Virus record (IMG/VR): IMGVR_UViG_3300037805_000216
Location: 1-26,572 of that record
From: a virus
Reading direction: 5' to 3' (one strand)
Length of the DNA: 26,572 bases
In this document: piece by piece, positions 126 to 23,294 of the stretch
How the letters are laid out: each line of letters starts with the position of its first letter
Numbering within the stretch: the first letter of the stretch is position 1
Notes under the pieces: generated by a model
Told to the model about the DNA's origin: nothing
Database searches by the model: none
The model's input: the letters and a program-made list of their open reading frames with translations, nothing else
Translations under genes and position numbers: made by a program

Positions 126-1414
126 TGAAACGAGTTAATTTGAGAACGATGATGGCGGATGCTAAGTTCATGGAATCTTACAGTCGCTTTGATGAGGACA
201 AAGGGCGATATGAAACATGGGAAGAAGCAGTGGATCGCGTCATGAAAATGCACCATGAGTTTTATGCTGATGTGATTACGACTGAACTTGAGGTAGAGCT
301 TGAAAAGGTTAGTTCTCTATATAAAGATAAGCGTGTAGTTGGTGCACAAAGAGCGTTACAGTTTGGTGGAAGTCAACTTCTCAATAAACATATGAGAATG
401 TATAATTGTTCAGCTACTTATATCGATAGACCGGCAGCATTCAGTGAAGTTTTCTGGTCAGGTTTATGTGGAGCTGGTGTTGGTATATCAGTACAGAAGC
501 ACCACATTTCTAACTTGCCTAAGATTAAGAAGCGGACCAAACACGCCAAGATATATTTAGTGCCTGATAGTGTTGAGGGCTGGGCAGACGCACTAGCAGT
601 GTTGATGAGTTCATTTTTCGATGGTGGAGGAACTCATCCAGAATTTGAAGGGCGAAGAGTGTTTTTCGATACCAGTGATATTAGGCCGAAGGGTGCTATG
701 ATTTCAGGTGGATTTAAGGCTCCCGGCCCAGGACCGCTAGATCGAGCATTGAGAAAGATTGAGCATTTATTGACCAATATAACAAAGGAACACGATGCTG
801 TTCAATTAGAGCCTATTCAAGCGTTTGATGCTATTATGCATGCCGCTGATGCTGTTATTGCTGGTGGTGTTAGACGCGCGGCCATCATTACATTATTCTC
901 CCCTGATGATGATGAAATGGCTAAGTCTAAGACTGGTAATTGGGTGGTTGACAATAAACAACGAGGCCGCTCAAATAATTCTGCTTTGTTGGTGAGAGAT
1001 GATGTCACTAAAGAGGAGTTCGATGGATTATTTGAAAGTTTGAAGCAGTTCGGTGAGCCAGGATTTATTTTCGGAAATGATGTGGATTACCATTTTAATC
1101 CGTGTTTAACGGGAGATAGTGTTGTAAATGTTAAACGAAATTGTGATGATGAGATGATGGAAATTAGATTGGATGAATTATGTGATGTGTATTCTGAATA
1201 TCAAGCATTGTCATATAACATAGACAATGGTGTCTATGAATATAAGGATATCACTAACGGAGCAAGAACTAGATCCAATGCTGTTGTGATGGAATTAGAA
1301 ATGGAAAATGGATCCAAATTAAAACTGACGCCTGATCATTTAGTTCTCACTAAAAATAGAGGTTATGTAGAAGCTGGTGAATTAATTATGAGTGATGATA
1401 TTGTTACCATGTAG
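125..1414 (+). CDS. nrdJ: Class II ribonucleotide reductase, N-terminal part fused to split-intein N half
   Basis: First piece of an adenosylcobalamin-dependent ribonucleoside-triphosphate reductase, which makes deoxynucleotides without oxygen or a small subunit. ATG 125 is chosen because GAGG lies 8 nt upstream and the previous stop overlaps it; a GTG at 116 is in frame but has no ribosome site. Residues 1-326 are reductase. Cys95 (in MYNCS) fits the first redox-active active-site cysteine, and a DSVEGWADAL stretch is typical of NrdJ. The reductase part stops at FNP, just before the radical cysteine, and runs into about 103 residues of intein (CLTGDS at the start, TPDH block B near the end), then TAG. 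The remainder of the enzyme is encoded at 2197. Joined exteins total about 734 residues, close to the roughly 740 of known monomeric class II enzymes. Class II over class I rests on motif style and the C-terminal cysteine pair. Confidence 0.92.
   Translation: MKRVNLRTMMADAKFMESYSRFDEDKGRYETWEEAVDRVMKMHHEFYADVITTELEVELEKVSSLYKDKRVVGAQRALQFGGSQLLNKHMRMYNCSATYIDRPAAFSEVFWSGLCGAGVGISVQKHHISNLPKIKKRTKHAKIYLVPDSVEGWADALAVLMSSFFDGGGTHPEFEGRRVFFDTSDIRPKGAMISGGFKAPGPGPLDRALRKIEHLLTNITKEHDAVQLEPIQAFDAIMHAADAVIAGGVRRAAIITLFSPDDDEMAKSKTGNWVVDNKQRGRSNNSALLVRDDVTKEEFDGLFESLKQFGEPGFIFGNDVDYHFNPCLTGDSVVNVKRNCDDEMMEIRLDELCDVYSEYQALSYNIDNGVYEYKDITNGARTRSNAVVMELEMENGSKLKLTPDHLVLTKNRGYVEAGELIMSDDIVTM
1103..1411 (+). 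other. Split intein, N-terminal half (IntN, about 103 aa)
   Basis: The intein starts with Cys1 at 1103-1105 in the context FNP|CLTGDS. Block A (CLTGDSVV) and block B (LTPDHLVLTKNRGYV, with the TxxH splicing histidine) are both present. The frame then ends in TAG with no endonuclease domain and no C-terminal splicing motif. This is the size and layout of known split-intein N halves. The matching C half is at 2197-2298. Confidence 0.93.
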
Positions 1415-1465
1415 AGAGATTCTTTTGTGATAAATAACAGTAGAGAATACTAAAGGACTATTGTT

Positions 1466-2200
1466 ATGAAGAAATTCCATTATACATATCTTATAACTGA
1501 TTTAAACCCAACAGGAACTGAGAAGTATTATATAGGTGTTAGATCATGTAACTGTCCACCATCCGAGGACAGTTACATGGGGACACCAACATCAAGAAGA
1601 TCGTTAGAATTTCAGGATCGATTGAAAGAGTGTCCGGGTGAATTTGATAAGATTGTTATAGGTATATACACAACAAGAAATGATGCTGAGTCTGCTGAAT
1701 GTGATATGTTACAATCATATCATGTCACAGATAATAATTTATTTTATAATGTATTTAGTGGAAATATAACATCAAATGTTAATTTATGGGAAAACAAGGA
1801 CTGGAGAGATTTCCATTCTAAAGCAACATCCGATGGAACTAAAAAGGGCATCGCAGAAAATGATACTGTGAAGAAAAGATCTAAAAGAGCTAAAGTAGTT
1901 TGGGACGCACCAGGATATAGTGAGAAACGGGACATGTTGGGGTGTGGGAAAGGTGAGAAGAACGGAAGATCTATTTTAACAGAGGATGATGTTTATTTCA
2001 TTAGATATACAGTATATCCTATACTGAAAGAGTTGCTGGGTGCCTCGATAGTTAGAAAGGTGAATAGAAACGGTAAAATGTATTATAAGAACGATATGAT
2101 AAAAATGGAGACGGTGTGTCGTATAATAGCGGATGAGTATGATATGACAATTACCCCAATAAGAAGAGTTATAGAACGAAAATCATGGAGACATATATGA
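1466..2200 (+). CDS. GIY-YIG homing endonuclease lying between the intein halves
   Basis: A 244-residue free-standing gene. Residues 6-110 form a GIY-YIG nuclease: YTYLITD is the GIY-like strand, KYYIGVRS the YIG strand with its arginine, and AESAECDML supplies the helix glutamate, followed by an FYNVFSG ending. The C-terminal part (LTEDDVYFIR ... IRRVIERKSWRHI) resembles the helix-turn-helix DNA-binding repeat that often ends phage homing enzymes. AAGGA about 8 nt upstream gives a good ribosome site. Its stop overlaps the next start (ATGA), so the intein C half may be translationally coupled to it. By position it probably cuts intein-less nrdJ alleles and spreads the whole fractured locus; this role is inferred. 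Confidence 0.9.
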   Translation: MKKFHYTYLITDLNPTGTEKYYIGVRSCNCPPSEDSYMGTPTSRRSLEFQDRLKECPGEFDKIVIGIYTTRNDAESAECDMLQSYHVTDNNLFYNVFSGNITSNVNLWENKDWRDFHSKATSDGTKKGIAENDTVKKRSKRAKVVWDAPGYSEKRDMLGCGKGEKNGRSILTEDDVYFIRYTVYPILKELLGASIVRKVNRNGKMYYKNDMIKMETVCRIIADEYDMTITPIRRVIERKSWRHI

Positions 2201-2298
2201 GAATGAATAGTATTAAGAGGGTTGATAATGAAGATGTTTACGATATAACCGTAGATGATAATCACAATTTTGTGGCAAATAATATAGTAGTTCATAAT
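2197..2298 (+). other. Split intein, C-terminal half (IntC, about 34 aa)
   Basis: Short intein tail with block F (VYDITVDDNHNFVANN) and block G (VVHN|C), including the penultimate His and the terminal Asn needed for succinimide formation. The +1 residue is Cys at 2299-2301. At 34 residues it matches the size of natural IntC pieces. Confidence 0.93.
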
Positions 2299-3525
2299 TG
2301 CGCGGAAATTGGATTATACCCTAAATCTAGTAAAGGAGTTTCAGGTTTTCAGGTGTGTAATCTGTCAGAGATTAATGGCTCTAAGTGTACTACGGCTGAA
2401 TTGTTCTTTGAGGCATGTGAGGCCGCCGCCATTATAGGAACAATTCAAGCAGGATACACAGATCTCGATTATTTAGGCACTGCCACTAAGGAAATTGTTG
2501 AGAGGGAGGCACTTATTGGTGTATCCATCACGGGATGGATGAATAATCCTGATGTGTTGTTTGATTCAGCGACTCTCAAGAAAGGTGCTAAGATTGTTAA
2601 AGATACAAATAAACGGATTGCTAGTATGATAGGAATCAATCAAGCTGCTAGATGCACTACCACAAAACCTGCCGGTAATGTTAGTGTGTTGCTTGAGACT
2701 GCTTCGGGGATTCATCCTGAACACTCTAAACGATATCTGAGAAATGTCCAGATCAATAAAGAACTTGAAGTTGGACAACTCATTAAAGATACAAATCCTT
2801 ACATGGTAGAAGAGTCCGTGTGGTCAGAGAACAAAACTGATTATGTCATTAGTTTTCCTGTTATTGCTCCAGGTACATCAATTTTTAAGAGCGATATGAT
2901 GGGTGTTGACTTACTAGAAAAGGTTAAATTGGCTCAAAAATATTGGATTGCTGCCGGCACTAATGAAGATTTGTGTGTGAAGAAGGGTATGACACATAAC
3001 ATTTCTAATACCATCACTGTTGGAGAAAACTGGGATGAAGTGAGAGATTATGTGTTTAATAACCGATATAATTTTGCTGCTGTTTCATTTTTATCCGCAA
3101 CTGGTGATAAAGATTATAATCAGGCACCATTCACTGAAGTTCATACATCAGCAGAGCTAGTTCGTATATATGGTGATGGCGCACTTTTAGCAAGTGGTCT
3201 TATTGTGGATGCTCATGACGGATTCGATAATCTTTGGGAGGCGTGTGACTCTGCTGTTGATGGCATAGTGTCTGATAGTCAGGAGGTTAATGATCTTAGA
3301 GCTAATTGGATCAGACGATTTAAGAAGTTCTCAGAGAATCATTTCAATAGCGATGAAAAGAGAACCTCTTACTGTTTAAAGGATGTGTACTTGCTCTATA
3401 AATGGACCAAAATCCAGTCGGAATATGTGAAGGTTAATTTTGTAGAAGATCTTAAAGAGAAGGTGTATACCGAGATCAACACAATGGCGGCAGCAGCATG
3501 TCATGGTGGAACATGTGATCTGTGA
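2197..3525 (+). CDS. nrdJ: Split-intein C half fused to class II ribonucleotide reductase C-terminal part
   Basis: Second piece of the reductase. ATG 2197 is preferred: GGAG lies 6 nt upstream and ATGA overlaps the endonuclease stop; an in-frame ATG at 2185 lacks this. Residues 1-34 are IntC, ending VVHN; the next residue, Cys, is both the +1 splicing nucleophile and the reductase radical cysteine (CAEIGLYP). Joined to the first part it rebuilds NPC-x-E, where Asn, Cys and Glu are catalytic. A cysteine 19 residues further on fits the second redox cysteine. TTTKPAGN and SGIHPEHSKRYLR are class II landmarks. The tail CHGGTCDL gives a C-x4-C pair like the shuttle cysteines of Lactobacillus-type enzyme. 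The downstream gene starts in a GTGA overlap. Confidence 0.92.
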   Translation: MRMNSIKRVDNEDVYDITVDDNHNFVANNIVVHNCAEIGLYPKSSKGVSGFQVCNLSEINGSKCTTAELFFEACEAAAIIGTIQAGYTDLDYLGTATKEIVEREALIGVSITGWMNNPDVLFDSATLKKGAKIVKDTNKRIASMIGINQAARCTTTKPAGNVSVLLETASGIHPEHSKRYLRNVQINKELEVGQLIKDTNPYMVEESVWSENKTDYVISFPVIAPGTSIFKSDMMGVDLLEKVKLAQKYWIAAGTNEDLCVKKGMTHNISNTITVGENWDEVRDYVFNNRYNFAAVSFLSATGDKDYNQAPFTEVHTSAELVRIYGDGALLASGLIVDAHDGFDNLWEACDSAVDGIVSDSQEVNDLRANWIRRFKKFSENHFNSDEKRTSYCLKDVYLLYKWTKIQSEYVKVNFVEDLKEKVYTEINTMAAAACHGGTCDL

Positions 3526-11948: not shown

Positions 11949-12294
11949 TGTGAAGGAAAGCACTGAATACGAGAGTTTAATTGGCGTGAAAGAGGCGCCA
12001 TCCCTGTTCCCTACACTGGGTGAGTTCATTGGTGAAGAAGACACTACTGGACAAGACATTGACACAAAGGAGTGGATGTCTCATTGGAAGAGGGCGCCTG
12101 AGTATGAGGCAGAGAAGTGTGACGACTTCAAAGCAATCATCATGCACTTCAACACAGAAGAGGACTATGATCTGTTCAAGGAGAAGTTGGATATGCTTCA
12201 CTTGACACCTAAGACGAAGTCCGCATATTTTCCATCGCGTTTCCCCCGTGATCTTACTGTACTGCGTTGGATGGATCCAGAGGAGGTCGAGTAA
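11941..12294 (+). CDS. Small phage protein with a DF/HF-KTKS-type domain (117 aa)
   Basis: ATG 11941 has GGAG 6 nt upstream inside dexA. The core (EWMSHWKRAPEY..., KAIIMHFNTEEDYDLF, LTPKTKSAYFP) resembles a small domain seen alone, or attached to ParB-like and methylase-like proteins, in many phages, often beside DNA-modification genes. I know no proven function. Its TAA overlaps the glycosyltransferase ATG, arguing that the two act together. Confidence 0.72.
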   Translation: MSDVKESTEYESLIGVKEAPSLFPTLGEFIGEEDTTGQDIDTKEWMSHWKRAPEYEAEKCDDFKAIIMHFNTEEDYDLFKEKLDMLHLTPKTKSAYFPSRFPRDLTVLRWMDPEEVE

Positions 12295-13244
12295 TGAATC
12301 CTAAGCATCCAATGTATATTGTCTCAAAGGGCAGAGCTGTTGAGGGTGTGACAACAAAATACTTCAACAAGATGAGGATCCCTCATTATATCGCTGTTGA
12401 GCCTCAAGACATGGAGGACTATGAGAAGACAAAGGGTCCATACACGACACTGTTAGAGCTACCCTTCTCTAATCACGGTGACGGTCCTGGAAGAGCGCGG
12501 AACTGGGTGTGGGATCATAGTAAAGAGGAGCTTGGTGCTGAATCACATTGGGTGTTTGATGATAATATCGCGGGCTTTCTTCGACTTCATAAGAACGTGC
12601 GCCTGAGGATTTCTGATGGCAGCCTCTTTCGCTTCTGTGAAGAGTTCATTGATCGATATGAGAATGTTCCCGTGTCAGGTCTTCAATACAGAGCGTTCAT
12701 TGCTCCAACATCCTTCTATCCACCATATGTGAAGAATACACGCATCTACTCGGCTCTATTGATTCGCAATGACTGTGAGTTCCGTTGGAGAGGGCGATAC
12801 AATGAGGACACAGATCTATCTCTTCGTGTGTTAAAGGCAGGACAGTGTACCATCCAGTTCAACATTCTACTCCAAGAGAAGATGGTAACCCAAGCACTCA
12901 AGGGCGGCAATACTGCTGAGTTCTATCATGCTGAGGGTGATGATTCACACAACATCGTTGACGACAAGAGATACACTGGCACCATCAAAAAAAGCCAGAT
13001 GTTGGTTGATCTTCATCCTGATGTTTGCCGCATTGAAGAGAAATGGGGACGTATCCATCATTATTGTGATTATGGACCATTTAAGGCTAACAAGTTGATC
13101 CTAAAGCCCGAATTTGAGGGTATTCTGGATGAGCCGTATACACCCAATGAGTACGGTATGAAGTTGTGTAAGACGACCAAAGACGGCGACTATGTGCAAG
13201 CATATGATTCTATTGAGGATGGATTCAACACACTCGACTGGTAA
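12294..13244 (+). CDS. TET-associated-type glycosyltransferase
   Basis: A 316-residue protein; ATG 12294 has AGGAGG 7 nt upstream. HPMYIVSKGRA at the start, LPFSNHGDGPGRARNWVW, HWVFDDNIAGF (a DxD-like metal site), NTRIYSALLIRND and FRWRGRYNEDTDLSLRVLK match the phage family named TET-associated glycosyltransferase. Members are proposed to add sugars to modified pyrimidines in phage DNA and evade restriction. No TET/JBP oxygenase is visible here, so the acceptor base is unknown; another acceptor is possible. It is last in the dexA operon, before a terminator. Confidence 0.87.
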   Translation: MNPKHPMYIVSKGRAVEGVTTKYFNKMRIPHYIAVEPQDMEDYEKTKGPYTTLLELPFSNHGDGPGRARNWVWDHSKEELGAESHWVFDDNIAGFLRLHKNVRLRISDGSLFRFCEEFIDRYENVPVSGLQYRAFIAPTSFYPPYVKNTRIYSALLIRNDCEFRWRGRYNEDTDLSLRVLKAGQCTIQFNILLQEKMVTQALKGGNTAEFYHAEGDDSHNIVDDKRYTGTIKKSQMLVDLHPDVCRIEEKWGRIHHYCDYGPFKANKLILKPEFEGILDEPYTPNEYGMKLCKTTKDGDYVQAYDSIEDGFNTLDW

Positions 13245-15361: not shown

Positions 15362-15444
15362 TGCTTTGTGTTCACAAGCAAGGAAATTGAGATATGGACA
15401 CAGTAGAACCTAGGATTAATTTAACGATAAAGTTGATTAACTTG

Positions 15445-15452
15445 TATAAATA
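15445..15452 (+). promoter_or_regulatory. T4-late-promoter-like TATAAATA box
   Basis: TATAAATA within TGTATAAATAGAAGTA, a 16-nt sequence repeated exactly at 26517-26532. T4 late promoters consist of this octamer. The next ATG is only 6 nt on, so any message from here would be nearly leaderless. Confidence 0.35.
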
Positions 15453-15457
15453 GAAGT

Positions 15458-15589
15458 ATGGAACAGTTTACATTAAAGTCTGCCGATGTTACAATTGACA
15501 GTATGAGAAAACAACACATTGAAGCGCCTCGTGCGTTCATTAATGGCCGTCCGTCAAATTATGATGGATGGAGGAATATTAGTAGATAA
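15458..15589 (+). CDS. Small hypothetical protein (43 aa)
   Basis: ATG 15458 directly follows the TATAAATA box; no ribosome site is visible. The peptide is polar (MEQFTLKSADVTIDSM, ending FINGRPSNYDGWRNISR). A strong terminator follows 20 nt after the stop, which supports a real transcription unit end. Family unknown. Confidence 0.42.
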   Translation: MEQFTLKSADVTIDSMRKQHIEAPRAFINGRPSNYDGWRNISR

Positions 15590-15609
15590 GTTATTGATCT
15601 AACTCTAAT

Positions 15610-15645
15610 ATCCCTCTCAAGGCCAACACTTTGAGAGGGATTTTT
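15610..15645 (+). terminator. Strong rho-independent terminator overlapping a ribosome site
   Basis: ATCCCTCTCAA (15610-15620) pairs perfectly with TTGAGAGGGAT (15631-15641), an 11-bp stem with a 10-nt loop, then a T run to 15645. The 3' arm AGAGGGA is also the only ribosome site for ATG 15647. Confidence 0.85.
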
Positions 15646-15646
15646 A

Positions 15647-15781
15647 ATGGGTATGAAAGATAAGAGGGTGACCCGCAACAAAGTTGCCAAGCACGCTTAC
15701 AAGACGAATAAAGCAGTTGTGTTTCAGGACAGAACCAAGTACACTAGAAAGAGTAAACACAAGACGCAGGAGTACACATAA
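15647..15781 (+). CDS. Small very basic protein (44 aa)
   Basis: Lys/Arg-rich throughout (KDKRVTRNKVAKHAYKTNK, ending TKYTRKSKHKTQEYT), resembling small basic proteins common in T4-like phages, probably nucleic-acid binding. The ribosome site is inside the 3' arm of the terminator above, so read-through message would fold it shut. An alternative start is ATG 15653. Confidence 0.6.
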   Translation: MGMKDKRVTRNKVAKHAYKTNKAVVFQDRTKYTRKSKHKTQEYT

Positions 15782-15823
15782 GTAAAACTTATACGGTTAT
15801 AGAAAATTTAGTGAAAATAATTG

Positions 15824-15851
15824 TTGACCTTTTCTCCAGATGTGGTATAAT
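15824..15851 (+). promoter_or_regulatory. Early promoter cassette, copy 5 (divergent)
   Basis: TTGACC (15824-15829), 16-nt spacer, TATAAT (15846-15851), then AGGACCATAAA. Upstream CTTATACGGTTATAGAAAATTT is a degenerate form of the shared element. Confidence 0.7.
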
Positions 15852-15876
15852 AGGACCATAAACAAACAGAAGAACA

Positions 15877-16092
15877 ATGACTACAGTAACACAAGAAAAT
15901 GATGGATGGTACAACTTCAGCAATCGTAACATTGATTACTCAATGAAGATAGAAGAAGATGGTGCTATCTCAGTTTGGAAGAATAGCTGTAGAGGAATGA
16001 ACTTGTCGGTCTATGTGAATGGCCTTGATAACATGACAAGAAAGCCAATGGCTAAATTTCTCAAAGATATAGTTGAATTTATTTCAATTTAA
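15877..16092 (+). CDS. Small hypothetical protein (71 aa)
   Basis: Behind promoter copy 5. Alternating strands (GWYNFSNRNIDYSMKIEEDG, AISVWKNS) then a helix (RKPMAKFLKDIVEFISI) suggest a small alpha/beta fold. One cysteine, no membrane segment, weak ribosome site. It is the last gene before the RNA-rich region. Family not recognised. Confidence 0.62.
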   Translation: MTTVTQENDGWYNFSNRNIDYSMKIEEDGAISVWKNSCRGMNLSVYVNGLDNMTRKPMAKFLKDIVEFISI

Positions 16093-16095
16093 CTG

Positions 16096-16124
16096 TTGAC
16101 AACACCAGAAGATGGTGTTATAAT
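16096..16124 (+). promoter_or_regulatory. Consensus sigma70 promoter for the tRNA region
   Basis: TTGACA (16096-16101), 17-nt spacer, TATAAT (16119-16124): a perfect consensus. It lies at the entrance to the ORF-poor RNA region, starting transcription near 16131. Confidence 0.85.
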
Positions 16125-16130
16125 GAACAT

Positions 16131-16315
16131 ATGAGGTACCTAGATCTCTAAGCTAGGGAAGTCCAGAGGGCAACAAGTCATAAGTGACGGTAACCAACGG
16201 ATTTATAACAAACACTCAACATAGTTGCGGGAGGGACTCCGTGATGATGTATGATTCTCGAAAAACCGCCCGGCTAGTTCACCGGGATAATGGAGTAGAG
16301 ATGAATCTGTTGGAT
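16131..16315 (+). ncRNA. Structured leader RNA of unknown type
   Basis: About 185 nt without an ORF, directly behind a consensus promoter. Visible hairpins: CCTAG/CTAGG (16140-16158), GTCA/TGAC around TAAG, and CCCGG/CCGGG (near 16269-16286). No tRNA fold fits. It may be a separate RNA or a processed leader of the tRNA transcript. Confidence 0.45.
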
Positions 16316-16364
16316 GTTTGTTATATTAAAGTATACTGTAATAGTGTGCTTTAATATAACAAAC
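16316..16364 (+). repeat. Perfect 16-bp AU-rich hairpin
   Basis: GTTTGTTATATTAAAG (16316-16331) pairs perfectly with CTTTAATATAACAAAC (16349-16364) around a 17-nt loop. No T run follows, so it is more likely an RNase III-type processing or stability element than a terminator. The ribosome site of the next gene begins one base later. Confidence 0.7.
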
Positions 16365-16376
16365 GAGAGGTGTGAT

Positions 16377-16469
16377 ATGAAGACAGATATATTAGTGGTT
16401 GTGATAACACTATGGGTTATATTTGAGGTAGACACTATCATGGGTTTTGTGGTGTATTTAATGAAGTGA
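16377..16469 (+). CDS. Membrane micropeptide (30 aa)
   Basis: GAGAGG lies 6 nt before ATG 16377. The peptide MKTDILVVVITLWVIFEVD... is one hydrophobic helix with a short C-terminal MK. It sits between the 16-bp hairpin and tRNA-Asn. Many phage micropeptides of this kind insert in the inner membrane; function unknown. Confidence 0.5.
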   Translation: MKTDILVVVITLWVIFEVDTIMGFVVYLMK

Positions 16470-16479
16470 AGAATTTTAT

Positions 16480-16554
16480 TCCTCGTGGGCCGCAAGGTGT
16501 GGCAGCAGACTGTTAATCTGTGTTAGCCTGATTCGATTTCAGGACGAGGAGCCA
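16480..16554 (+). tRNA. tRNA-Asn (GTT), CCA encoded
   Basis: Acceptor TCCTCGT/ACGAGGA, anticodon stem around CTGTTAA, T arm CCTGA-TTCGATT-TCAGG, discriminator G plus CCA. First clear tRNA of the array. Confidence 0.88.
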
Positions 16555-16653
16555 ATTTATGGATGTGAACAATGCTCACATCCTCCTATTCTCTCTAGTG
16601 ACGTTAAGTTGCTACCAGTTGCGATTCTGGAATATCAAAAATCGACTAGATTT
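16555..16653 (+). other. Structured spacer, possible RNA cassette remnant
   Basis: Contains a perfect 8-bp hairpin GGATGTGA/TCACATCC (16561-16583) and a TCTAGT...ACTAGA inverted pair enclosing about 50 nt with CCAG/CTGG. No acceptable T arm, so not called a tRNA. Confidence 0.35.
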
Positions 16654-16730
16654 AGCTCCTTAGTATACTGGTTGGATTACAGTCGCCTGATAAGCGACAG
16701 AGGCAAGTTCAATTCTTGCAGGAGCTACCA
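16654..16730 (+). tRNA. tRNA-Ile (GAT), CCA encoded
   Basis: Acceptor AGCTCCT/AGGAGCT, anticodon stem GTCGC/GCGAC around CTGATAA, T arm GCAAG-TTCAATT-CTTGC, then ACCA. Confidence 0.92.
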
Positions 16731-16736
16731 GATTAT

Positions 16737-16814
16737 GTCTTGATTGCTGAATCGCTTTCAGTAGGGAATATACGGAGTCATGACCGGAACGAGTTCAAAT
16801 CTTGTCTCAAGACA
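16737..16814 (+). tRNA. tRNA-like gene, anticodon CAT, abnormal anticodon arm
   Basis: Perfect 7-bp acceptor GTCTTGA/TCAAGAC, D-arm-like GCTG/CAGT, and a good T arm ACGAG-TTCAAAT-CTTGT. The anticodon stem is only CGG/CCG around an 8-nt loop containing CAT, and the D-to-anticodon linker is long. No CCA is encoded. Could be elongator Met, Ile2 or a decayed tRNA. Confidence 0.55.
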
Positions 16815-16833
16815 CTTATTGAGGAGATGTAAC

Positions 16834-17058
16834 ATGAGAGGATATGGTTTACCCAGACATAAAGACGTTGAATGCCCAGATTTAGTTGATATCAGAGTGT
16901 ATGGGTTAAAGACATCCACTGGACAGATCAAGTCTAAAGGTGGTGATTACAGAGGCTCTACTAAAACAAAGTTGCGTAATGAGAGCCGTCGCCGACTCAA
17001 AAAGAATGAAAGAAATGGTGCCAAGATGGGCATCAGAAAACAGATTATGGACTTGTAG
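16834..17058 (+). CDS. Small basic protein whose stop lies in a tRNA gene (74 aa)
   Basis: GAGGAG 7 nt upstream fixes ATG 16834, just after the CAT tRNA-like gene. Highly basic second half (TKTKLRNESRRRLKKNERNGAK) suggests nucleic-acid binding. Its TAG occupies tRNA-Asp positions 8-10, so gene and tRNA overlap by 10 nt and processing of the tRNA would remove the stop codon from that transcript. Family not recognised. Confidence 0.6.
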   Translation: MRGYGLPRHKDVECPDLVDIRVYGLKTSTGQIKSKGGDYRGSTKTKLRNESRRRLKKNERNGAKMGIRKQIMDL

Positions 17059-17124
17059 CTCAATCGGTAGAGCATCGGACTGTCACGTCGAAGGTAGCGG
17101 GATCGTAGCCCGTCAAGTCCGCCA
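17049..17124 (+). tRNA. tRNA-Asp (GTC), CCA encoded
   Basis: Acceptor GGACTTG/CAAGTCC, D arm GCTC/GAGC, loop CTGTCAC, GCCA end. Overlaps the stop of the preceding CDS. Confidence 0.92.
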
Positions 17125-17130
17125 AACAAT

Positions 17131-17213
17131 GGATCGGTCGGATAATGGTATTCCAGCGGATTGTAACTCCGTCGCCTCAGGCATTGGCTGTTCAAATCAG
17201 CCCTGATCCACCA
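17131..17213 (+). tRNA. tRNA-Tyr (GTA), CCA encoded
   Basis: Acceptor GGATCGG/CTGATCC, anticodon stem GCGGA/TCCGT around TTGTAAC, long class II variable arm, T arm GGCTG-TTCAAAT-CAGCC, ACCA. Confidence 0.92.
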
Positions 17214-17220
17214 AATTTAT

Positions 17221-17303
17221 TGCGGGGTATACAACAGGAAAGTAGCTGGGCTCATAACCCGGTGCCGAAAGGATTGTGGGTTCGAATCCCACCCCCGCTA
17301 CCA
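17221..17303 (+). tRNA. tRNA-Met (CAT), probable initiator
   Basis: Position 1:72 is an unpaired T-T and the anticodon stem ends in three G-C pairs (CTGGG-CTCATAA-CCCGG), both hallmarks of bacterial initiator tRNA. T arm GTGGG-TTCGAAT-CCCAC and ACCA follow. The variable region is unusually long (13 nt, CC-GAAA-GG). Confidence 0.82.
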
Positions 17304-17392
17304 ATTTTTCTCAGGAGACGGTTTTGCACGATCGTCGAATGAGTGAGAGAACCTTCTGATGGGCATGGGTGCGACCTTGTCATGATGAAGCC

Positions 17393-17463
17393 AACACAAT
17401 GGACAAACGGTTAAGTCGGTCACCTTAACGTGATAGGCGTAGGTTCGAATCCTGCTTGTGTAT
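17393..17463 (+). tRNA. tRNA-like gene with a 6-nt anticodon loop
   Basis: Acceptor ACACAA/TTGTGT, D stem GAC/GTC, anticodon stem GTCAC/GTGAT and T arm GTAGG-TTCGAAT-CCTGC all pair, but the loop is only CTTAAC. If read normally the anticodon would be TAA, yet there is no Leu-type long arm. No CCA. Possibly a one-base-deleted or specialised tRNA. Confidence 0.6.
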
Positions 17464-17485
17464 GTTCTCAATAATTTATGTAATA

Positions 17486-17559
17486 CGGGGTGTAGCTCAG
17501 TCTGGCAGAGTCCTGGTTTTGGATACCAGTTGTCGTAGGTTCGAATCCTACCATCCCGA
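17486..17559 (+). tRNA. tRNA-Pro (TGG)
   Basis: Acceptor CGGGGTG/CATCCCG, anticodon stem CTGGT/ACCAG around TTTGGAT, T arm GTAGG-TTCGAAT-CCTAC. CCA is not encoded. Confidence 0.92.
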
Positions 17560-17567
17560 AAAATTTT

Positions 17568-17640
17568 GCGGGTAAGCTCATGGAGAGTCGCCGGCCTTCC
17601 AAGCCGTGTAGAGGGATTTCGATCATCCCTATCCGCTCCA
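17568..17640 (+). tRNA. tRNA-Gly (TCC), CCA encoded
   Basis: Acceptor GCGGGTA/TATCCGC, loop CTTCCAA within CGGC/GCCG, T arm GAGGGATTTCGATCATCCCT-like, then TCCA. Confidence 0.87.
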
Positions 17641-17708
17641 ATATTTGACTAAACGGATGTTTTGATGTCCTAGTGAATTAGTCGTGATGTGTCACCTTAT
17701 GAATTTAT

Positions 17709-17782
17709 AGGTCGTTGGTGTAATGGCAACATAGGTGCCTCCAAAGTACTTGCTCGGCGTTCGAATCCCTGACGACCTGCCA
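17709..17782 (+). tRNA. tRNA-Trp (CCA), CCA tail encoded
   Basis: Acceptor AGGTCGT/ACGACCT with discriminator G as in E. coli tRNA-Trp, anticodon loop CTCCAAA, T loop TTCGAAT. Directly abuts tRNA-Lys. Confidence 0.9.
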
Positions 17783-17783
17783 C

Positions 17784-17857
17784 GGGAGTGTAATTCAATG
17801 GTAGAATAGGTGGCTTTTAACCACTCTATGAGAGTTCGATTCTCTCCACTCCCACCA
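17784..17857 (+). tRNA. tRNA-Lys (TTT), CCA encoded
   Basis: Acceptor GGGAGTG/CACTCCC, anticodon stem GGTGG/CCACT around CTTTTAA, T arm AGAG-TTCGATT-CTCT, ACCA. Confidence 0.93.
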
Positions 17858-17865
17858 AATTTAAT

Positions 17866-17940
17866 GGTGACCATAGCTCAGTTGGTTAGAGTCCTGGATT
17901 GTGATTCCAGATGTCGAGGGTTCAAATCCCTCTGGTCACC
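17866..17940 (+). tRNA. tRNA-His (GTG)
   Basis: Extra G-1 opposite C73, as in bacterial tRNA-His; anticodon stem CTGGA/TCCAG around TTGTGAT; T arm GAGGG-TTCAAAT-CCCTC. The tail reads CAA, so CCA is not fully encoded. Confidence 0.93.
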
Positions 17941-17949
17941 CAATTTTAT

Positions 17950-18025
17950 GCTCCTGTCGTCTAGTGGACTAGGACACTACCCTTTCACGGTAGTTACGGC
18001 GGTTCGAACCCGCTCAGGAGTACCA
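17950..18025 (+). tRNA. tRNA-Glu (TTC), CCA encoded
   Basis: Anticodon stem CTACC/GGTAG around CTTTCAC, T arm GCGG-TTCGAAC-CCGC, acceptor GCTCCTG/CAGGAGT, ACCA. Confidence 0.93.
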
Positions 18026-18030
18026 ATTTA

Positions 18031-18239
18031 TGCTGTACACCACTGGGGAGATCTCTCTGGTAAATGCTGGGTGATGTAGAAATGAGTGAAACAGAGAAGG
18101 GTGGTTCCTTCTAATGTCATGATTGAACACATCGTAACCTGTTGTCGTATTCCTAACCAGTTGATCGGCCGCGGAGACCAGTAAACCTGTCTTCCCTTAA
18201 TTGACTCAGATCGAGAATGGTGGAATCTGTACAGCACCA
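18031..18239 (+). ncRNA. Structured RNA of about 209 nt with tRNA-like ends, unknown family
   Basis: Ends TGCTGTACA and TGTACAGCA pair perfectly (9 bp) and are followed by CCA and the same AATTTATG linker used between tRNAs. Inside are CCAC/GTGG, GGGGAGA/TCTTCCC (7 bp with one G-U), TCTCTG/CAGAGA and a hairpin AGAAGG/CCTTCT. No T arm, anticodon arm or reading frame fits. It is therefore not a tRNA or tmRNA that I can recognise. It may be processed by the tRNA pathway, as its 3' end suggests. Confidence 0.6.
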
Positions 18240-18245
18240 ATTTAT

Positions 18246-18304
18246 GGAGGCAGCCGTGGGTAATGCGTACCTCGAGGGCTTACAGCGGAAGAATGTCTCC
18301 ACCA
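18246..18304 (+). ncRNA. Mini tRNA-like RNA (59 nt)
   Basis: Acceptor-like GGAGGCA/TGTCTCC and a 3' ACCA bound only about 41 internal bases, with a D-arm-like CGT/GCG and a CCTCGAGG palindrome. There is no T arm. Possibly a decayed tRNA or a small tRNA mimic. Confidence 0.4.
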
Positions 18305-18312
18305 ATTAAGCA

Positions 18313-18420
18313 GCGGTAGATGTGCCCTGCGTTACCAACAGAAGACATCAAACTGATAGATGTTGTGGCGGTAGGAGCACCCCACGTTAATAACTGAAGC
18401 ATCCAAACAGAAATAAAGCG
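18313..18420 (+). repeat. Imperfect tandem repeat, about 55 nt by two
   Basis: GCGGTAG at 18313 and at 18368 each open a similar unit: GCGGTAG, CCC, CGTTA, AAC-GAAG, ATC, AAAC. The units contain short hairpins (GTGG/CCAC; ACATC/GATGT). No ORF and no tRNA fold. Confidence 0.5.
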
Positions 18421-18485
18421 TCTCAGGCAGTTATGGTTAATGCGCTAGTCTGAAGAACGATGTTCGATTCCTCGGGGACGCACCA
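18418..18485 (+). tRNA. Short tRNA-like gene lacking a normal anticodon arm, CCA encoded
   Basis: Acceptor GCGTCTC/GGGACGC, D arm GCA/TGC and T arm CGATG-TTCGATT-CCTCG are good and ACCA follows. Only 14 nt lie between D and T arms, too few for an anticodon stem-loop. The bases CTGAAGA there resemble a Phe (GAA) loop. Probably a deleted tRNA or a mimic. Confidence 0.5.
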
Positions 18486-18494
18486 AATCATCTG

Positions 18495-18523
18495 TTTACA
18501 TGTAAGTGTGAATGATGTATAAT
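18495..18523 (+). promoter_or_regulatory. Consensus-like promoter for the giant RNA
   Basis: TTTACA (18495-18500), 17-nt spacer, TATAAT (18518-18523). No ORF follows for more than 1.2 kb, so it serves the RNA starting near 18530. Confidence 0.8.
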
Positions 18524-18529
18524 TCATTT

Positions 18530-19365
18530 ATGAATTCGGCAGTATGATGTCGTAGAGTAAGAGGGAGTAATCCTTCCCAAAGCAGGAAAGCCTACATACC
18601 TGCGCCGGAAACGGTTCATTCATACAAGCCCAAGTCACCCGAAAGGGTTGTCGGTAGGACGGCAATAGACAGAAAAGTGGGGATTAAGTCCGAAAGGATA
18701 TCACTCAGAGCCGATCGGTGAGAGTGTAAGGGCCGCAAGTCCACTGAATCACGCAAACTCACTCACTGTTGATGATTGATGGGTAGTGTAGGAGTCTGAT
18801 CGTTAGCGCGAAAAGGCGACTACACAGTACAATAGGGATTGGTCTTGAATGGGAACAATGTCTTGAAGTACAGTTGAGTATCCCGCAAGGAGAAAGACAG
18901 TTGGAGTGTTGTATTCTGTATCTAACAAGATATTGAGCAACTGCGGCAGCACTTCAAGTAGGTTGCATATAACTCAATGGGAGAGTAATCGACGTTTAAT
19001 CGATCTGTTGGAGGTTCAAGTCCTTCTATGATAAATGCAAAGACTGCCGCAGTGTTGTGTGAAAGGTGCTTAATTCCTGTGCCCTAGGGTAATCAGGATC
19101 AATGAAACTCGCAAGGTGGAGTTGTTTATTTGGATGATTGCGTTGAGGTTGATACCTCTTAGCTGCTCGCAAGGTAGACGTGTGATGAATGATGAGTAGC
19201 ACAACACGATAAGTGATAGGCGACACTTCAAAAAACGCAGCACTGGTTGTTACTAGGAGAGGGTTTGTCCCGCTTAGTGGATAACGGACTAACTGTCCTC
19301 GCAAGGGATTAGGTACGGTTCAAAGACAACTGTAAAACGGGTGTAATCTCAGCCCGATGATTTAA
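18530..19365 (+). ncRNA. Giant ornate structured RNA (GOLLD-like candidate) with an embedded tRNA domain
   Basis: About 830 nt with its own promoter, no plausible ORF, and many short stems capped by GNRA-type loops: ACCC-GAAA-GGGT, TCC-GAAA-GGA, GGGCCGCAAGTCC, TCCCGCAAGGA, CTCGCAAGG (three times). A perfect 9-bp helix CTGCGGCAG (18941-18949) / CTGCCGCAG (19044-19052) encloses a tRNA-shaped domain. Size, phage context, place within a tRNA array and an internal tRNA all match what is known of GOLLD RNAs, large phage-associated RNAs of unknown function; ROOL is a related alternative. The family call is inference from architecture, not sequence alignment. The 3' end is uncertain; tRNA-Ser begins at 19366. 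Confidence 0.72.
18963..19040 (+). other. tRNA-like domain locked inside the giant RNA
   Basis: D arm ACTC/GAGT, a perfect anticodon stem ATCGA/TCGAT around CGTTTAA and T arm GGAGG-TTCAAGT-CCTTC are present. The acceptor is abnormal: TTGCATA faces TATG-ATAAATG-CAA, with an insertion and no CCA. Position 33 is G rather than the near-universal T. It is unlikely to be released or decode normally. Confidence 0.65.
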
Positions 19366-19453
19366 GGAAGAGTGTATGAGCGGCCAAAATAGCCTTCTTG
19401 GAAAGGAGTGCGCTCGAAAGGGTACAAAGGTTCGAATCCTTTCTCTTCCGCCA
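19366..19453 (+). tRNA. tRNA-Ser (GGA), CCA encoded
   Basis: Acceptor GGAAGAG/CTCTTCC, anticodon loop TTGGAAA, class II variable arm with CTCGAAAGGG, T arm AAAGG-TTCGAAT-CCTTT, GCCA. Confidence 0.92.
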
Positions 19454-19461
19454 TATAAATA

Positions 19462-19632
19462 GTTTCAACAACAGGTGCCACGGCTATGTTTGACGATCCC
19501 TAGTCATTCATCCGCAACATGGCGAAAATAGATGGGTGATTCAGCACCTCTCATCTTCCTTACTGTCGGCTGATGGGATCGTCGTCCTATTAAAGACCAC
19601 CCATTATCACTTTAGGGAGTGGTGATGTTGTG
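19462..19632 (+). ncRNA. Structured RNA region of unknown type
   Basis: About 170 nt without an ORF. A perfect 9-bp helix GACGATCCC (19492-19500) / GGGATCGTC (19575-19583) closes a 74-nt domain. Next comes a hairpin CATTATCAC/GTGGTGATG (19602-19627, 9 bp with G-U pairs). A TATAAATA box (19454-19461) precedes it. It could be a separate RNA or a 3' extension of the giant RNA. Confidence 0.5.
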
Positions 19633-19636
19633 TTAA

Positions 19637-19713
19637 TGACCCTTAGACAAACTGGTAAAGTCACCTGACTTTGACTCAGGTATTTCCACGTTCGATTCGT
19701 GGAGGGTCAGCCA
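19637..19713 (+). tRNA. tRNA-Gln (TTG), CCA encoded
   Basis: Acceptor TGACCCT/AGGGTCA, anticodon stem CCTGA/TCAGG around CTTTGAC, T arm CCACG-TTCGATT-CGTGG, GCCA. Confidence 0.93.
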
Positions 19714-19718
19714 AATAT

Positions 19719-19796
19719 GGGGCTGTAGCTCAGTTGGGAGAGCGCCTGCCTTGCACGCAGGAGGTTTCGTCGGTTCGATCCCGTCCAGCTCCACCA
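19719..19796 (+). tRNA. tRNA-Ala (TGC), CCA encoded
   Basis: Acceptor GGGGCTG/CAGCTCC, anticodon stem CTGC/GCAG around CTTGCAC, D arm GCTC/GAGC, T loop TTCGATC, ACCA. Confidence 0.92.
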
Positions 19797-19819
19797 TATT
19801 ATATGAAAAGGAGATTGTT

Positions 19820-20053
19820 ATGAGAATGTATGACTTGATGTATATCATCTATACTAGCCTGAATGGAACAACCATTGATCTAGGTGAATATGAGATTCAG
19901 CACTGGGCCACTATTGAGGGTTTAACAGCTCATGAGTGTAAGGTTGAAGAGAGGGCAAGCAATCATAAAGATCACACATATATTGATGATGTTGATGGTA
20001 AACTGAAGATGGGGGTGTGGTTATGTCGTCCACAAGCAACAATAATCGATTGA
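19820..20053 (+). CDS. Small hypothetical protein inside the tRNA array (77 aa)
   Basis: AAAGGAG lies 6 nt before ATG 19820. Mixed alpha/beta, with two cysteines and a central acidic/His-rich stretch (HECKVEERASNHKDHTYIDD). No membrane span. It is flanked by RNA genes on both sides, so it probably rides on the tRNA transcript. Family not recognised. Confidence 0.62.
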   Translation: MRMYDLMYIIYTSLNGTTIDLGEYEIQHWATIEGLTAHECKVEERASNHKDHTYIDDVDGKLKMGVWLCRPQATIID

Positions 20054-20189
20054 AGTTGAAATGAACGCACTGTAAAAATTTATGCCAGATCCCGTCCAAC
20101 CCAAAAGCATCGCTGCGTACAGCAGAGGTTCAGAAAGTGGGGTCGTCTGAAGAGTTGGTGGAGGCTCTTAGTATAAATGGCGCCAATAT
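20054..20189 (+). ncRNA. Structured spacer before tRNA-Arg, possible RNA
   Basis: No ORF. GATCCC pairs with GGGGTC across about 40 nt, and AAGAG/CTCTT forms a hairpin near 20140-20160. A GCCA-like end (GGCGCCA, 20180-20186) precedes tRNA-Arg, echoing tRNA cassettes. No tRNA fold is convincing. Confidence 0.35.
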
Positions 20190-20261
20190 ACCCTGTCCGA
20201 GGGATTCGGCTAGACCGCTACGAACGGTTCATGATACGCTCAACTCGTATACAGGGTGCCA
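20190..20261 (+). tRNA. tRNA-Arg (ACG), CCA encoded
   Basis: Perfect acceptor ACCCTGT/ACAGGGT, anticodon stem GACCG/CGGTT around CTACGAA, T stem ATACG/CGTAT with an atypical loop CTCAACT, GCCA. Confidence 0.88.
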
Positions 20262-20282
20262 AATTATATTATGAAGGAGATT

Positions 20283-20708
20283 ATGATAGAGTTGTTTTTA
20301 GCAGACCTGAAAGGGTACACACAAGATGAGATCCGTGAGCCTGTTGCCAATGAATATGCTGGCGAGGGTAGTGGTTTCGACTATGGTTACCCATCCAATA
20401 AAGAACAGAGGACGCTCCTAGAAGAGTTGCGGCAGCACACGTTCATTTTAGTGTATGAGTCAGTAGGTGATTACGGGTGTGACTCATCCTCATACTTCTT
20501 AATGCTCAACCATAAAGATGGTAAATATTATGAGTTTTCAGGCAGTCACTGTTCTTGTTATGGCTTCGAAGGTCAGTATGATCCTGTTGAGGCGCCACTT
20601 GAGTATCTGCTATCCGATAGATTCTCTATTCCATGTGGTGGCTACGATGATGAGTGCTCAGAGAACCAGAATGTTGCCAAGACATTCATACACAAATACT
20701 TTAAATAA
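20283..20708 (+). CDS. Hypothetical protein (141 aa)
   Basis: Start is uncertain: ATG 20283 has AAGGAGA just upstream at short spacing; in-frame ATG 20271 adds four residues. The protein is acidic and Tyr/Gly-rich, with the stretch YYEFSGSHCSCYGFEGQYDP and four further cysteines, hinting at a metal or redox site. No membrane span. The pattern recurs in phage proteins of unknown role, as far as I can recall. It ends 7 nt before tRNA-Leu. Confidence 0.65.
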   Translation: MIELFLADLKGYTQDEIREPVANEYAGEGSGFDYGYPSNKEQRTLLEELRQHTFILVYESVGDYGCDSSSYFLMLNHKDGKYYEFSGSHCSCYGFEGQYDPVEAPLEYLLSDRFSIPCGGYDDECSENQNVAKTFIHKYFK

Positions 20709-20715
20709 GACAACG

Positions 20716-20800
20716 CTGGAGTGGTGGAATTGGAATACACAGGAGGTTTAAGTTCTCCCGCCGTTAAGGATTGAGGGTTCGAGTCCCTCCTCCAGTACCA
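20716..20800 (+). tRNA. tRNA-Leu (TAA), CCA encoded
   Basis: Acceptor GCTGGAG/CTCCAGT, anticodon stem GGAGG/TCTCC around TTTAAGT, class II variable arm, T arm GAGGG-TTCGAGT-CCCTC, ACCA. Confidence 0.92.
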
Positions 20801-20827
20801 AATTTAATACCCTATAAAAATCTTTTG

Positions 20828-20856
20828 CTGTACTTCTCGGACATTTATGCTATAAT
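20828..20856 (+). promoter_or_regulatory. Early promoter cassette, copy 6
   Basis: CTGTAC (20828-20833), 17-nt spacer, TATAAT (20851-20856). Upstream TACCCTATAAAAATCTTTTG matches the shared element. Confidence 0.72.
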
Positions 20857-20892
20857 GGTTACATTGAAATGATAAATGAAAGGAGAGTTATA

Positions 20893-21151
20893 ATGAATCG
20901 CTATTCAACAAAGGAGAGGAGTGATATGGCTTATGTGAAGCATAGAGTTGGCACCCATATACTCTACTTTGCGAATCAAGAGCTGATGAACACTGCTATT
21001 ACTAGAGCTTAACCAATACACAACATCGCCTGAATGTGATAACTTTGATCTCCGTCTTCATGCCAACTTTATTGTTGACACAAGGTTCAACAGTGTAGTG
21101 AAATGTCGATTTCCTATTGAGGACATGATCGACGATTATGTTGGAATATGA
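20893..21151 (+). pseudogene. Frameshifted small gene
   Basis: AAGGAGAG 5 nt upstream starts ATG 20893, which runs 39 codons (ending ELMNTAITRA) to TAA at 21010-21012. The next frame is open from 20990 to 21151 and encodes a protein-like stretch (LNQYTTSPECDNFDLRLHANFIVD...) with no start of its own. A +1 shift between 20990 and 21010 would give one protein of about 86 residues. It may be a decayed gene, a sequence error or a true frameshift. Strong promoter copy 6 still precedes it. Confidence 0.55.
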
Positions 21152-21162
21152 TATGATTCAAA

Positions 21163-21247
21163 GCCCTTTGTTCCCGGCATTGGTCTTCTAAACCAATCCT
21201 TAGAGTTGGGTGGACGGCATGAGGTTCGATTCCTCCAGAGGGTGCCA
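21163..21247 (+). tRNA. tRNA-Arg (TCT) with a shrunken D arm, CCA encoded
   Basis: Perfect anticodon stem TTGGT/ACCAA around CTTCTAA; acceptor GCCCTTT/AGAGGGT; T arm GAGG-TTCGATT-CCTC; GCCA. Only about 10 nt lie between acceptor and anticodon stem, so the D arm is lost or tiny, and the variable region is about 23 nt. Confidence 0.7.
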
Positions 21248-21263
21248 ATTTAATGTTGATGTG

Positions 21264-21294
21264 TTGATACATTCAACAGAAGCTGTGATATAAT
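21264..21294 (+). promoter_or_regulatory. Extended -10 promoter
   Basis: TATAAT (21289-21294) preceded by TGTGA, with TTGATA 19 nt upstream. The leader then forms a GTGGGTC/GACCAC hairpin before the gene at 21382. Confidence 0.55.
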
Positions 21295-21381
21295 GAAGAT
21301 GTGGGTCAACTTGACCACAAAAGAAATCGTGTTGGGACAGGTTATTCCCTTGGAAAATGACCATTAAGAGGAAGTGATATT

Positions 21382-21564
21382 ATGAGTTTTGATATTAAAG
21401 CAGTGCGTGAAAAGGCAGAGAAAGAGATTCAAGATGAGCGTATGGAGAAGGCTAAAAAGAAGCTGGTGACCAAGTTGCGAGAGTTAGATGCCGCTAAGAT
21501 GGTTGTTCGCAATATTAAGCATGAGCTTAAGGTACTGGAAGCTGACATCTCTGAGGAGTTCTAG
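21382..21564 (+). CDS. Small coiled-coil protein (60 aa)
   Basis: GAGGAAG upstream supports ATG 21382. Almost the whole chain is a charged amphipathic helix (REKAEKEIQDERMEKAKKKL, then LRELDAAKMVVRNIKHEL), so it probably forms a coiled-coil oligomer. The stop overlaps the next gene's GTG. Role unknown. Confidence 0.68.
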   Translation: MSFDIKAVREKAEKEIQDERMEKAKKKLVTKLRELDAAKMVVRNIKHELKVLEADISEEF

Positions 21565-22115
21565 TGGATGGTTATGGGCCGATTCACTCTAGCCCTCCTG
21601 TGACGTTAATGTGGAACGGATGGATCGCAGAGTCATATCATCTATCTAACTGTGGATGGGAGTTCAGTGTTGAGCATGTTCCGACAGGATTCGGCGCCAA
21701 GAGACTTGTGTTCCGTCATGCCGAGATGAGAGTCCGTGGTGTTAGTGAAACGATTGATGATCATGTTTTAATGGATGCCAAGTTCGATAAGATCCAGTTG
21801 CGGTGTAATGTTAAGATGGCTGATAATTTAATCGTTCAGTCAATGAATAGCGGTCCTGCTAGTTATACATCAGTGGATATGTCTCTTGAATACAACCATC
21901 CGAGTATGATGGACACGGTGACTACAGAGGTGGACAGTCTCTTCAGAACAAGAGAATCTGGTATATTGGTGCCTGAAGACACTGTGCCAGATCTCCTTGA
22001 TCGTCTACTGGAGCTCCAAGAGCCGTCAAGACAAGAACGGTTAAAGGCACAGGTGAGAGAGTCGAATAAAGAGGTGATGACAATACCCACCAAGATCTAT
22101 AGGATGGCGGCATAG
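21564..22115 (+). CDS. Hypothetical protein (183 aa)
   Basis: GTG 21564 overlaps the previous TAG, with GAGGAG about 5 nt upstream. The N-terminal two-thirds is beta-rich (LMWNGWIAESYHL, GWEFSVEHVPTGFGAKRLVF); the C-terminus is helical (VPDLLDRLLELQEPSRQERL). No catalytic motif or membrane span is recognised. Co-transcribed with the coiled-coil gene. Confidence 0.65.
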   Translation: MDGYGPIHSSPPVTLMWNGWIAESYHLSNCGWEFSVEHVPTGFGAKRLVFRHAEMRVRGVSETIDDHVLMDAKFDKIQLRCNVKMADNLIVQSMNSGPASYTSVDMSLEYNHPSMMDTVTTEVDSLFRTRESGILVPEDTVPDLLDRLLELQEPSRQERLKAQVRESNKEVMTIPTKIYRMAA

Positions 22116-22716: not shown

Positions 22717-22836
22717 ATGACCATAGACGGTAGGGGTATTACCGTCAATCCAGCATTATCGGTTTCTGACACTGCTAGAGCTGTTCTACAGGCACTAGAG
22801 CCTATGTTGAGAGAATATTATAAAGGAATTAAATGA
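22717..22836 (+). CDS. Small hypothetical protein (39 aa)
   Basis: ATG 22717 starts 5 nt after the previous stop; AGG is a weak ribosome site. A helical C-terminal part (SDTARAVLQALEPMLREYY) is visible. Its TGA overlaps the YqeY-like start (ATGATG). Support is packing and frame only. Confidence 0.48.
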   Translation: MTIDGRGITVNPALSVSDTARAVLQALEPMLREYYKGIK

Positions 22837-23294
22837 TGAGTTTATTGAAGAAAATTAAGGCGGATCTATTGACAGCACGTAAGAATCGTGCTACATTCCA
22901 AGCAACAGCACTTACCACACTTGTAGGCGAAGCGGAGATGATTGGCAAGAACGATGGTAACCGTGAGACTACAGACGATGAGGTTCTCCGTGTCATTGAG
23001 AAGTTCACCAAGAACTTAGTTGCGTCAATGAAGCTGTATGAGAAGGGGTCTGCCGCATTTGATGCTGCTCTGAACGAGCACCGGCTTCTCTCCGCGTATC
23101 TCCCTGACCAGTTGACACATGCTGACTTGGTGAAACTCATCGACTCCTGCGTTGATCTCCTCGGGGTGATGAAAGAGGATAACCCTCAGAAACATATGGG
23201 TAAAGTGATGGCAGAGCTGAAGAAAGACTATCAAGGTCGATATGATGCTGGTGAAGCATCCAGACTCGTCAGGAACGCTCTCTCCACCGATTAA
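22833..23294 (+). CDS. GatB/YqeY-like protein
   Basis: A 153-residue protein (152 if ATG 22836 is used). LLKKIKADLLTARKNR, TALTTLVGEAEMIGK, DDEVLRVIEKFTKNL and the LSAYLPDQLTHADL motif follow the YqeY layout of helical domain plus GatB-tail-like domain. In GatB the tail domain contacts tRNA in the amidotransferase. Stand-alone YqeY function is not settled; a tRNA-linked role would suit this tRNA-rich phage but is inference. Confidence 0.75.
   Translation: MMSLLKKIKADLLTARKNRATFQATALTTLVGEAEMIGKNDGNRETTDDEVLRVIEKFTKNLVASMKLYEKGSAAFDAALNEHRLLSAYLPDQLTHADLVKLIDSCVDLLGVMKEDNPQKHMGKVMAELKKDYQGRYDAGEASRLVRNALSTD

Follow-up and report, generated by a model that had tools for sequence, protein, structure and literature searches.

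The closest described system, the GOLLD RNA env-38, forms a closed 14-mer cage that was determined by cryo-electron microscopy (cryo-EM); its variable linker lies inside the cage and is disordered (PMC12286853). The same study reports that GOLLD rises during lysis, that ribosomes bind it in pull-downs, and that transfer RNAs (tRNAs) are sometimes present in GOLLD linkers. The GOLLD of a Lactobacillus brevis prophage accumulates in lytic infection and is dispensable, as quoted in PMC7567579. Another RNA, ROOL, forms an 8-mer cage and is distinct from GOLLD in sequence and secondary structure (PMC12286853). Here, we examine a GOLLD locus at positions 18531–19364 of a 26,572-nucleotide (nt) stretch of viral DNA (IMG/VR record IMGVR_UViG_3300037805_000216, positions 1 to 26,572), referred to below as the window. 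Quite probably, a T4-like phage specifies at this locus a complete GOLLD RNA, which by analogy would form a cage and whose linker carries a tethered tRNA mimic.

In the covariance-model scan of the window, the Rfam model for GOLLD, RF02032, is matched end to end (model positions 1–416), with a score just 9 bits over the gathering threshold. This model represents the GOLLD 3′ domain alone; the 5′ domain falls outside it, and the 5′ half of the locus is instead identified by full-length homologues and by covariation. With 18530–19365 as a single-sequence nhmmer query against fetched phage contigs, nearly the whole query aligned in relatives, and a profile search yielded 164 GOLLD loci, of which 126 are full length; 80 remain once redundancy is removed at 88% identity. 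RF02032 scores exceed the gathering threshold in 10 relatives in one scan, and in more in later scans. Both domains are common to the full-length homologues, as expected of a family whose members exceed ~800 nt and whose 5′ domain varies more than its 3′ domain. The homology begins at the expected transcription start and stops about 1 base ahead of tRNA-Ser (19366), which gives a size of ~834 nt and agrees with the GOLLD-type RNA of about 830 nt put forward in the original prediction. Because even the closest relative (L047) shares only 65% identity with it, the window GOLLD is, judged by identity, a distant family member. With every testable family feature present, 18531–19364 is identified by homology as a full-length GOLLD RNA. 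For ROOL, whose model the original prediction had also proposed for the search, the covariance model gives no match at gathering in the window, and none within 15400–21400 at E values up to 1. What the window RNA shares with ROOL is being a large phage non-coding RNA beside tRNA islands and, by analogy, cage formation.

The comparison with env-38 was made through its description in PMC12286853. The window RNA is of almost the same length (~834 versus 833 nt), follows the same plan of a 5′ and a 3′ domain, and has its linker at the same place; the match to the whole 3′ model, an L22-type pseudoknot, a conserved terminal hairpin loop and the location in a phage tRNA island are further likenesses to env-38 and RF02032. 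The difference lies in the linker, which in the window spans ~84 nt and bears a tRNA-like domain, whereas that of env-38 has 42 nt and is disordered. The subfamily of the window is also divergent, scoring ~150–233 bits versus ~210–330 bits for core GOLLDs among the members scanned. By analogy with the family, the window RNA would form a cage as well.

At the DNA level, similarity of the GOLLD stretch to cultured phages is limited to short pieces, of which the Phaeobacter and Roseobacter/Ruegeria ones fall in true GOLLDs; Phaeobacter phage MD18 is a cultured member of the subfamily. The Staphylococcus CF5 piece is confined to a tRNA, and those from Klebsiella span the tRNA-Ser downstream of GOLLD; neither was retained as GOLLD. 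These searches of cultured phages found no close GOLLD in T4-like members. A scan of genome contigs for the subfamily hairpin found nothing, and a looser hairpin pattern led to Streptococcus GOLLDs and two metagenome-assembled genomes.

Covariation across related phages, which the original prediction had looked to, is seen in both domains: in the set of 80 non-redundant sequences, nearly all of the column pairs with the strongest covariation belong to Watson–Crick helices. The structure used for counting comprises 182 pairs in 43 helices, pseudoknots included, in 34 sequences. Pairing is found in 93.2% of cells, versus 37–41% when the 3′ partners are slid by 1–3 columns, and two-sided changes occur at 147 of the 182 pairs versus 66–77 in the slid controls; none of 500 shuffles reaches the observed level. 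Since the helices were drawn from the same family, the percentage paired is somewhat favoured, and the two-sided changes are the stronger evidence. Helix 4 (18563–18566/18572–18575) pairs at 24% and helix 42 at 64%, reflecting either misalignment or real variation, and these two are not relied on. The expected GNRA-capped stems are present and conserved.

The perfect 9-base-pair (bp) helix proposed to enclose a tRNA-like domain, termed the clamp here (CTGCGGCAG with CTGCCGCAG), is real, with the tRNA called by ARAGORN inside it. Across the 34 relatives it is paired at 96.3%, with two-sided changes at five of eight counted pairs; selection acts on the helix that clamps the linker. Because the helix formed by 18901–18907 and 18951–18957 encloses its 5′ strand, the clamp is a pseudoknot. 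Among the other long-range pairings, helix 2 is 94.1% paired with two-sided changes at four of six pairs, and helix 29 is 100% paired with two-sided changes at all five. The terminal hairpin probably matches, by analogy, the role of L27 in PMC12286853.

Like phage tRNAs and tRNA-like structures, the domain in the linker has D, anticodon and T arms and a tertiary core. It differs from phage tRNAs in that domains of this type are embedded in a larger RNA, do not maintain the outer acceptor pairs, lack CCA and have an anticodon that is not conserved. In the window, the domain has G33, the pairing TTGCATA/TATGATA, the tail AATG and no CCA, and thus lacks the 7-bp acceptor stem, CCA and U33 of a functional tRNA-Lys. 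The internal tRNA of the original prediction is accordingly upheld as a tRNA-like domain, but it is degenerate and is not to be counted as a tRNA gene; an intact tRNA-Lys(TTT) is located elsewhere in the window, at 17784. Four good pairs remain next to the T stem, in an acceptor stub (18966–18969/19027–19030). The domain is flanked by TTGCAT (18963–18968) and ATGCAA (19035–19040), and this flanking helix is weakly above shuffles in relatives (mean 3.62 versus 3.37 bp; 0/300 shuffles as high); it is not built on here.

Folded alone as a single sequence, the domain does no better than shuffles, so that the case for a tRNA-like fold rests on covariation. Across 69 non-redundant members, U8, A14, G19, G53, U54, U55, C56, A58 and C61 show little or no variation; covariation is seen in the stems of the D, anticodon and T arms and at the Levitt 15–48 tertiary pair. 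Acceptor pairs 4:69 to 7:66 are kept at 0.90–0.97, versus 0.46–0.68 when shuffled, while pairs 1:72 (0.52 versus 0.48) and 2:71 (0.45 versus 0.40) do not exceed chance and 3:70 is weakly kept. Of 95 distinct embedded domains, 2 encode CCA, as opposed to 1335 of 1468 free tRNAs (~91%) on the same contigs. On the GOLLD tree, at least 30 anticodon changes are counted, with position 34 the most frequent site; U33, U36, A37 and A38 are mostly kept across embedded domains, and no long variable arm is found in those whose anticodon is of the Leu or Ser type.

When loci are collected by patterns that do not involve the tRNA, ARAGORN finds a tRNA in the linker of 24 of 33 non-redundant subfamily members, yet none is predicted in any core phage or Streptococcus member tested; for this reason, the window GOLLD is assigned, on these predictions, to a tRNA-bearing GOLLD subfamily. 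The linker tRNA is also present in two metagenome-assembled GOLLDs (L270 and L271). Core GOLLDs score higher with Rfam than this subfamily does.

Since the embedded domain keeps the tRNA body but neither the outer acceptor pairs nor CCA, and its anticodon drifts, it is most likely a tRNA mimic, tethered and not excised, that is retained as a shape and not as a decoding tRNA. Several observations weigh against this interpretation. A detectable tRNA is missing from 9 of the 33 non-redundant subfamily members and from nearly all core GOLLDs, so that GOLLD in general can function without a linker tRNA. The 7-bp acceptor is kept in 7/69 domains and CCA in 2/69; L261 has both. Excision is possible in all of these domains. 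The prevalence of Lys, Asn and Arg-AGA anticodons among embedded domains (51/69 versus 152/1470) comes from counts in which shared ancestry is uncorrected. It is very unlikely, in our view, that the embedded tRNA is a working gene cut from the GOLLD transcript, with GOLLD as its precursor or carrier. Such a gene would explain why both ARAGORN and Rfam call the tRNA, why relatives usually have U33 and a purine at 37, and why CCA is encoded in L261 and L125; it sits badly with outer acceptor pairs at chance, the rarity of CCA, G33 in the window, the repeated isotype drift and the Leu/Ser versions without long variable arms, and cutting the tRNA out would split apart the cap and ring domains, which are conserved.

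The domain might instead be a decaying, functionless relic of a phage tRNA that once fell into a tolerant linker. In a neutral relic, the D, anticodon and T arms would decay as quickly as the outer acceptor pairs, whereas the core tRNA positions are invariant in 69 lineages and the helices and the tertiary 15–48 pair still covary. This makes a relic improbable, even though the tRNA is absent from core GOLLDs, several relatives (L003, L127, L089) have it in reduced form or not at all, and the linker is known to be variable. A further alternative denies that the stretch is GOLLD and takes it for a chance-structured gap in an array of decayed tRNAs; it can point to several odd tRNA-like pieces in the array and to the margin of only 9 bits above gathering. 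The full-model match (E 3.9e-43), the 126 full-length homologues and covariation far over the controls rule it out, leaving it a negligible probability.

In the favoured reading, GOLLD would be transcribed from its own promoter, its 3′ end presumably being made by 5′ processing of tRNA-Ser, and its 5′ and 3′ domains would fold as cap and ring, respectively; its copies would assemble, as in the rest of the family, into a hollow RNA cage. The linker carries the folded tRNA-shaped domain, held by the covarying pseudoknotted helix; this domain keeps the body of a tRNA, namely its D arm, T arm and core, yet would not be easily excised or charged. The tethered mimic would then be presented on the linker inside the cage, where, in the weakest step, it may engage a factor specific for the elbow of tRNAs or for the anticodon loop. 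The leading guess for the function of the mimic, a decoy for tRNA-targeting host defences, is a doubtful one. It is likewise conceivable, if rather unlikely, that cages of this subfamily display many non-excised mimics with a Lys/Asn/Arg-AGA-type loop (U33-N-U/C-U36-A37-A38) as a caged decoy for anticodon nucleases or other tRNA-targeting host factors; an anticodon-nuclease decoy would fit the excess of Lys, Asn and Arg-AGA anticodons.

That tRNAs occur in some GOLLD linkers was already noted in PMC12286853; non-excised mimics that would mark one GOLLD subfamily were not found in the literature examined. By sequence, the present comparison separates a ‘cargo tRNA’ from a ‘tRNA mimic’ and points to the mimic. 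With the tRNA-bearing subfamily defined, the mimic offers a testable handle on the function of GOLLD.

Table 1. Features of the GOLLD locus and its immediate surroundings (window coordinates).
Feature	Position	Strand	Basis or remark
Promoter, −35 TTTACA (18495–18500), 17 nt, −10 TATAAT (18518–18523)	18495–18523	+	11/12 matches
GOLLD RNA, whole	18531–19364	+	Probable start from promoter and homology start; end from homology end
GOLLD 5′ domain (cap domain in the cryo-EM structure)	18531–18898	+	126 full-length relatives; covarying helices
First-hairpin loop, pseudoknot with 18620–18625 (GTATGA/TCATAC)	18542–18547	+	Helix 2
GOLLD 3′ domain, RF02032 model 1–416	18899–19355	+	159.2 bits, gathering 150, E 3.9e-43
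Clamp 5′ strand CTGCGGCAG	18941–18949	+	Helix 21
Linker (variable region)	18958–19041	+	Alignment; linker position from PMC12286853
tRNA-like domain, tRNA-Lys(TTT) by ARAGORN	18963–19034	+	Rfam tRNA 45.4 bits
Clamp 3′ strand CTGCCGCAG	19044–19052	+	Helix 21
Pseudoknot strand, partner 19239–19243 (GTGCT/AGCAC)	19066–19070	+	Helix 29
Hairpin-loop pseudoknot with 19236–19238	19220–19222	+	Helix 37; agrees with L22 pseudoknot (PMC12286853)
Terminal hairpin, conserved loop GUAAUCUCA	19339–19355	+	Helix 43
tRNA-Ser(GGA)	19366–19453	+	Starts right after GOLLD homology end

The RNA begins a few bases past a sigma-70-type promoter, which bears out the earlier claim that it has a promoter of its own. 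In 16000–21600 there is only one other strong plus-strand site, a perfect TTGACA-17-TATAAT (12/12; 16096–16124) that heads the tRNA array. Promoter-like sites with at most two mismatches occur just upstream of 25 of 78 relatives, versus ~2.6% of random 80-mers. The stretch 18495–19365 had been described as free of open reading frames (ORFs), and no plus-strand ORF of at least 50 amino acids is found there; a 92-amino-acid minus-strand ORF (19026–19304) has no PHROG match. No terminator-like site is found between GOLLD and tRNA-Ser. GOLLD sits in a phage tRNA array, as stated earlier. The T4-like label is supported by genes of the window for T4 RNase H and for topoisomerase II subunits of T4 type.

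The array contains further tRNA-like pieces. A ~205-nt element (18032–18241) has a 7-bp tRNA-acceptor-like helix (GCTGTAC/GTACAGC) and an ACCA end; its fold is no better than shuffles, and it has no homologue in the phage collection or the fetched loci. The phage collection likewise contains no homologue of the stretch 18020–18500. ARAGORN missed four more CCA-ended or tRNA-like pieces: a short one at 18246–18308, a tRNA-Phe-like one at 18417–18485, a tRNA-Arg(ACG)-like one with C54 at 20190–20261, and a tRNA-Gly(TCC) at 17568–17641 with relatives in other phages. None of the CCA-ended elements folded around GOLLD clearly beats shuffles. The tRNA predicted at 17393–17463 has a two-base anticodon (6-nt loop) and is possibly decayed. 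Just downstream of the array, 22833–23294 encodes a protein matching PHROG 1460 (annotated tRNA amidotransferase).

A transfer-messenger RNA (tmRNA) gene lies near GOLLD in phage contigs L002, L003, L026, L066, L064, L135, L010, L020 and L056, only ~150–230 nt downstream of it in L002 and L003; this neighbourhood occurs in few loci only. Elsewhere in the window, a class II (B12-dependent type) ribonucleotide reductase gene at 116–3525 is fractured, with a split intein: of its two ORFs, one ends and the other begins with an intein splicing domain, and a homing-endonuclease ORF (1466–2200) lies between them. The TET-associated glycosyltransferase encoded at 12267–13244 hints at modified (hydroxymethylated, glucosylated) phage DNA.
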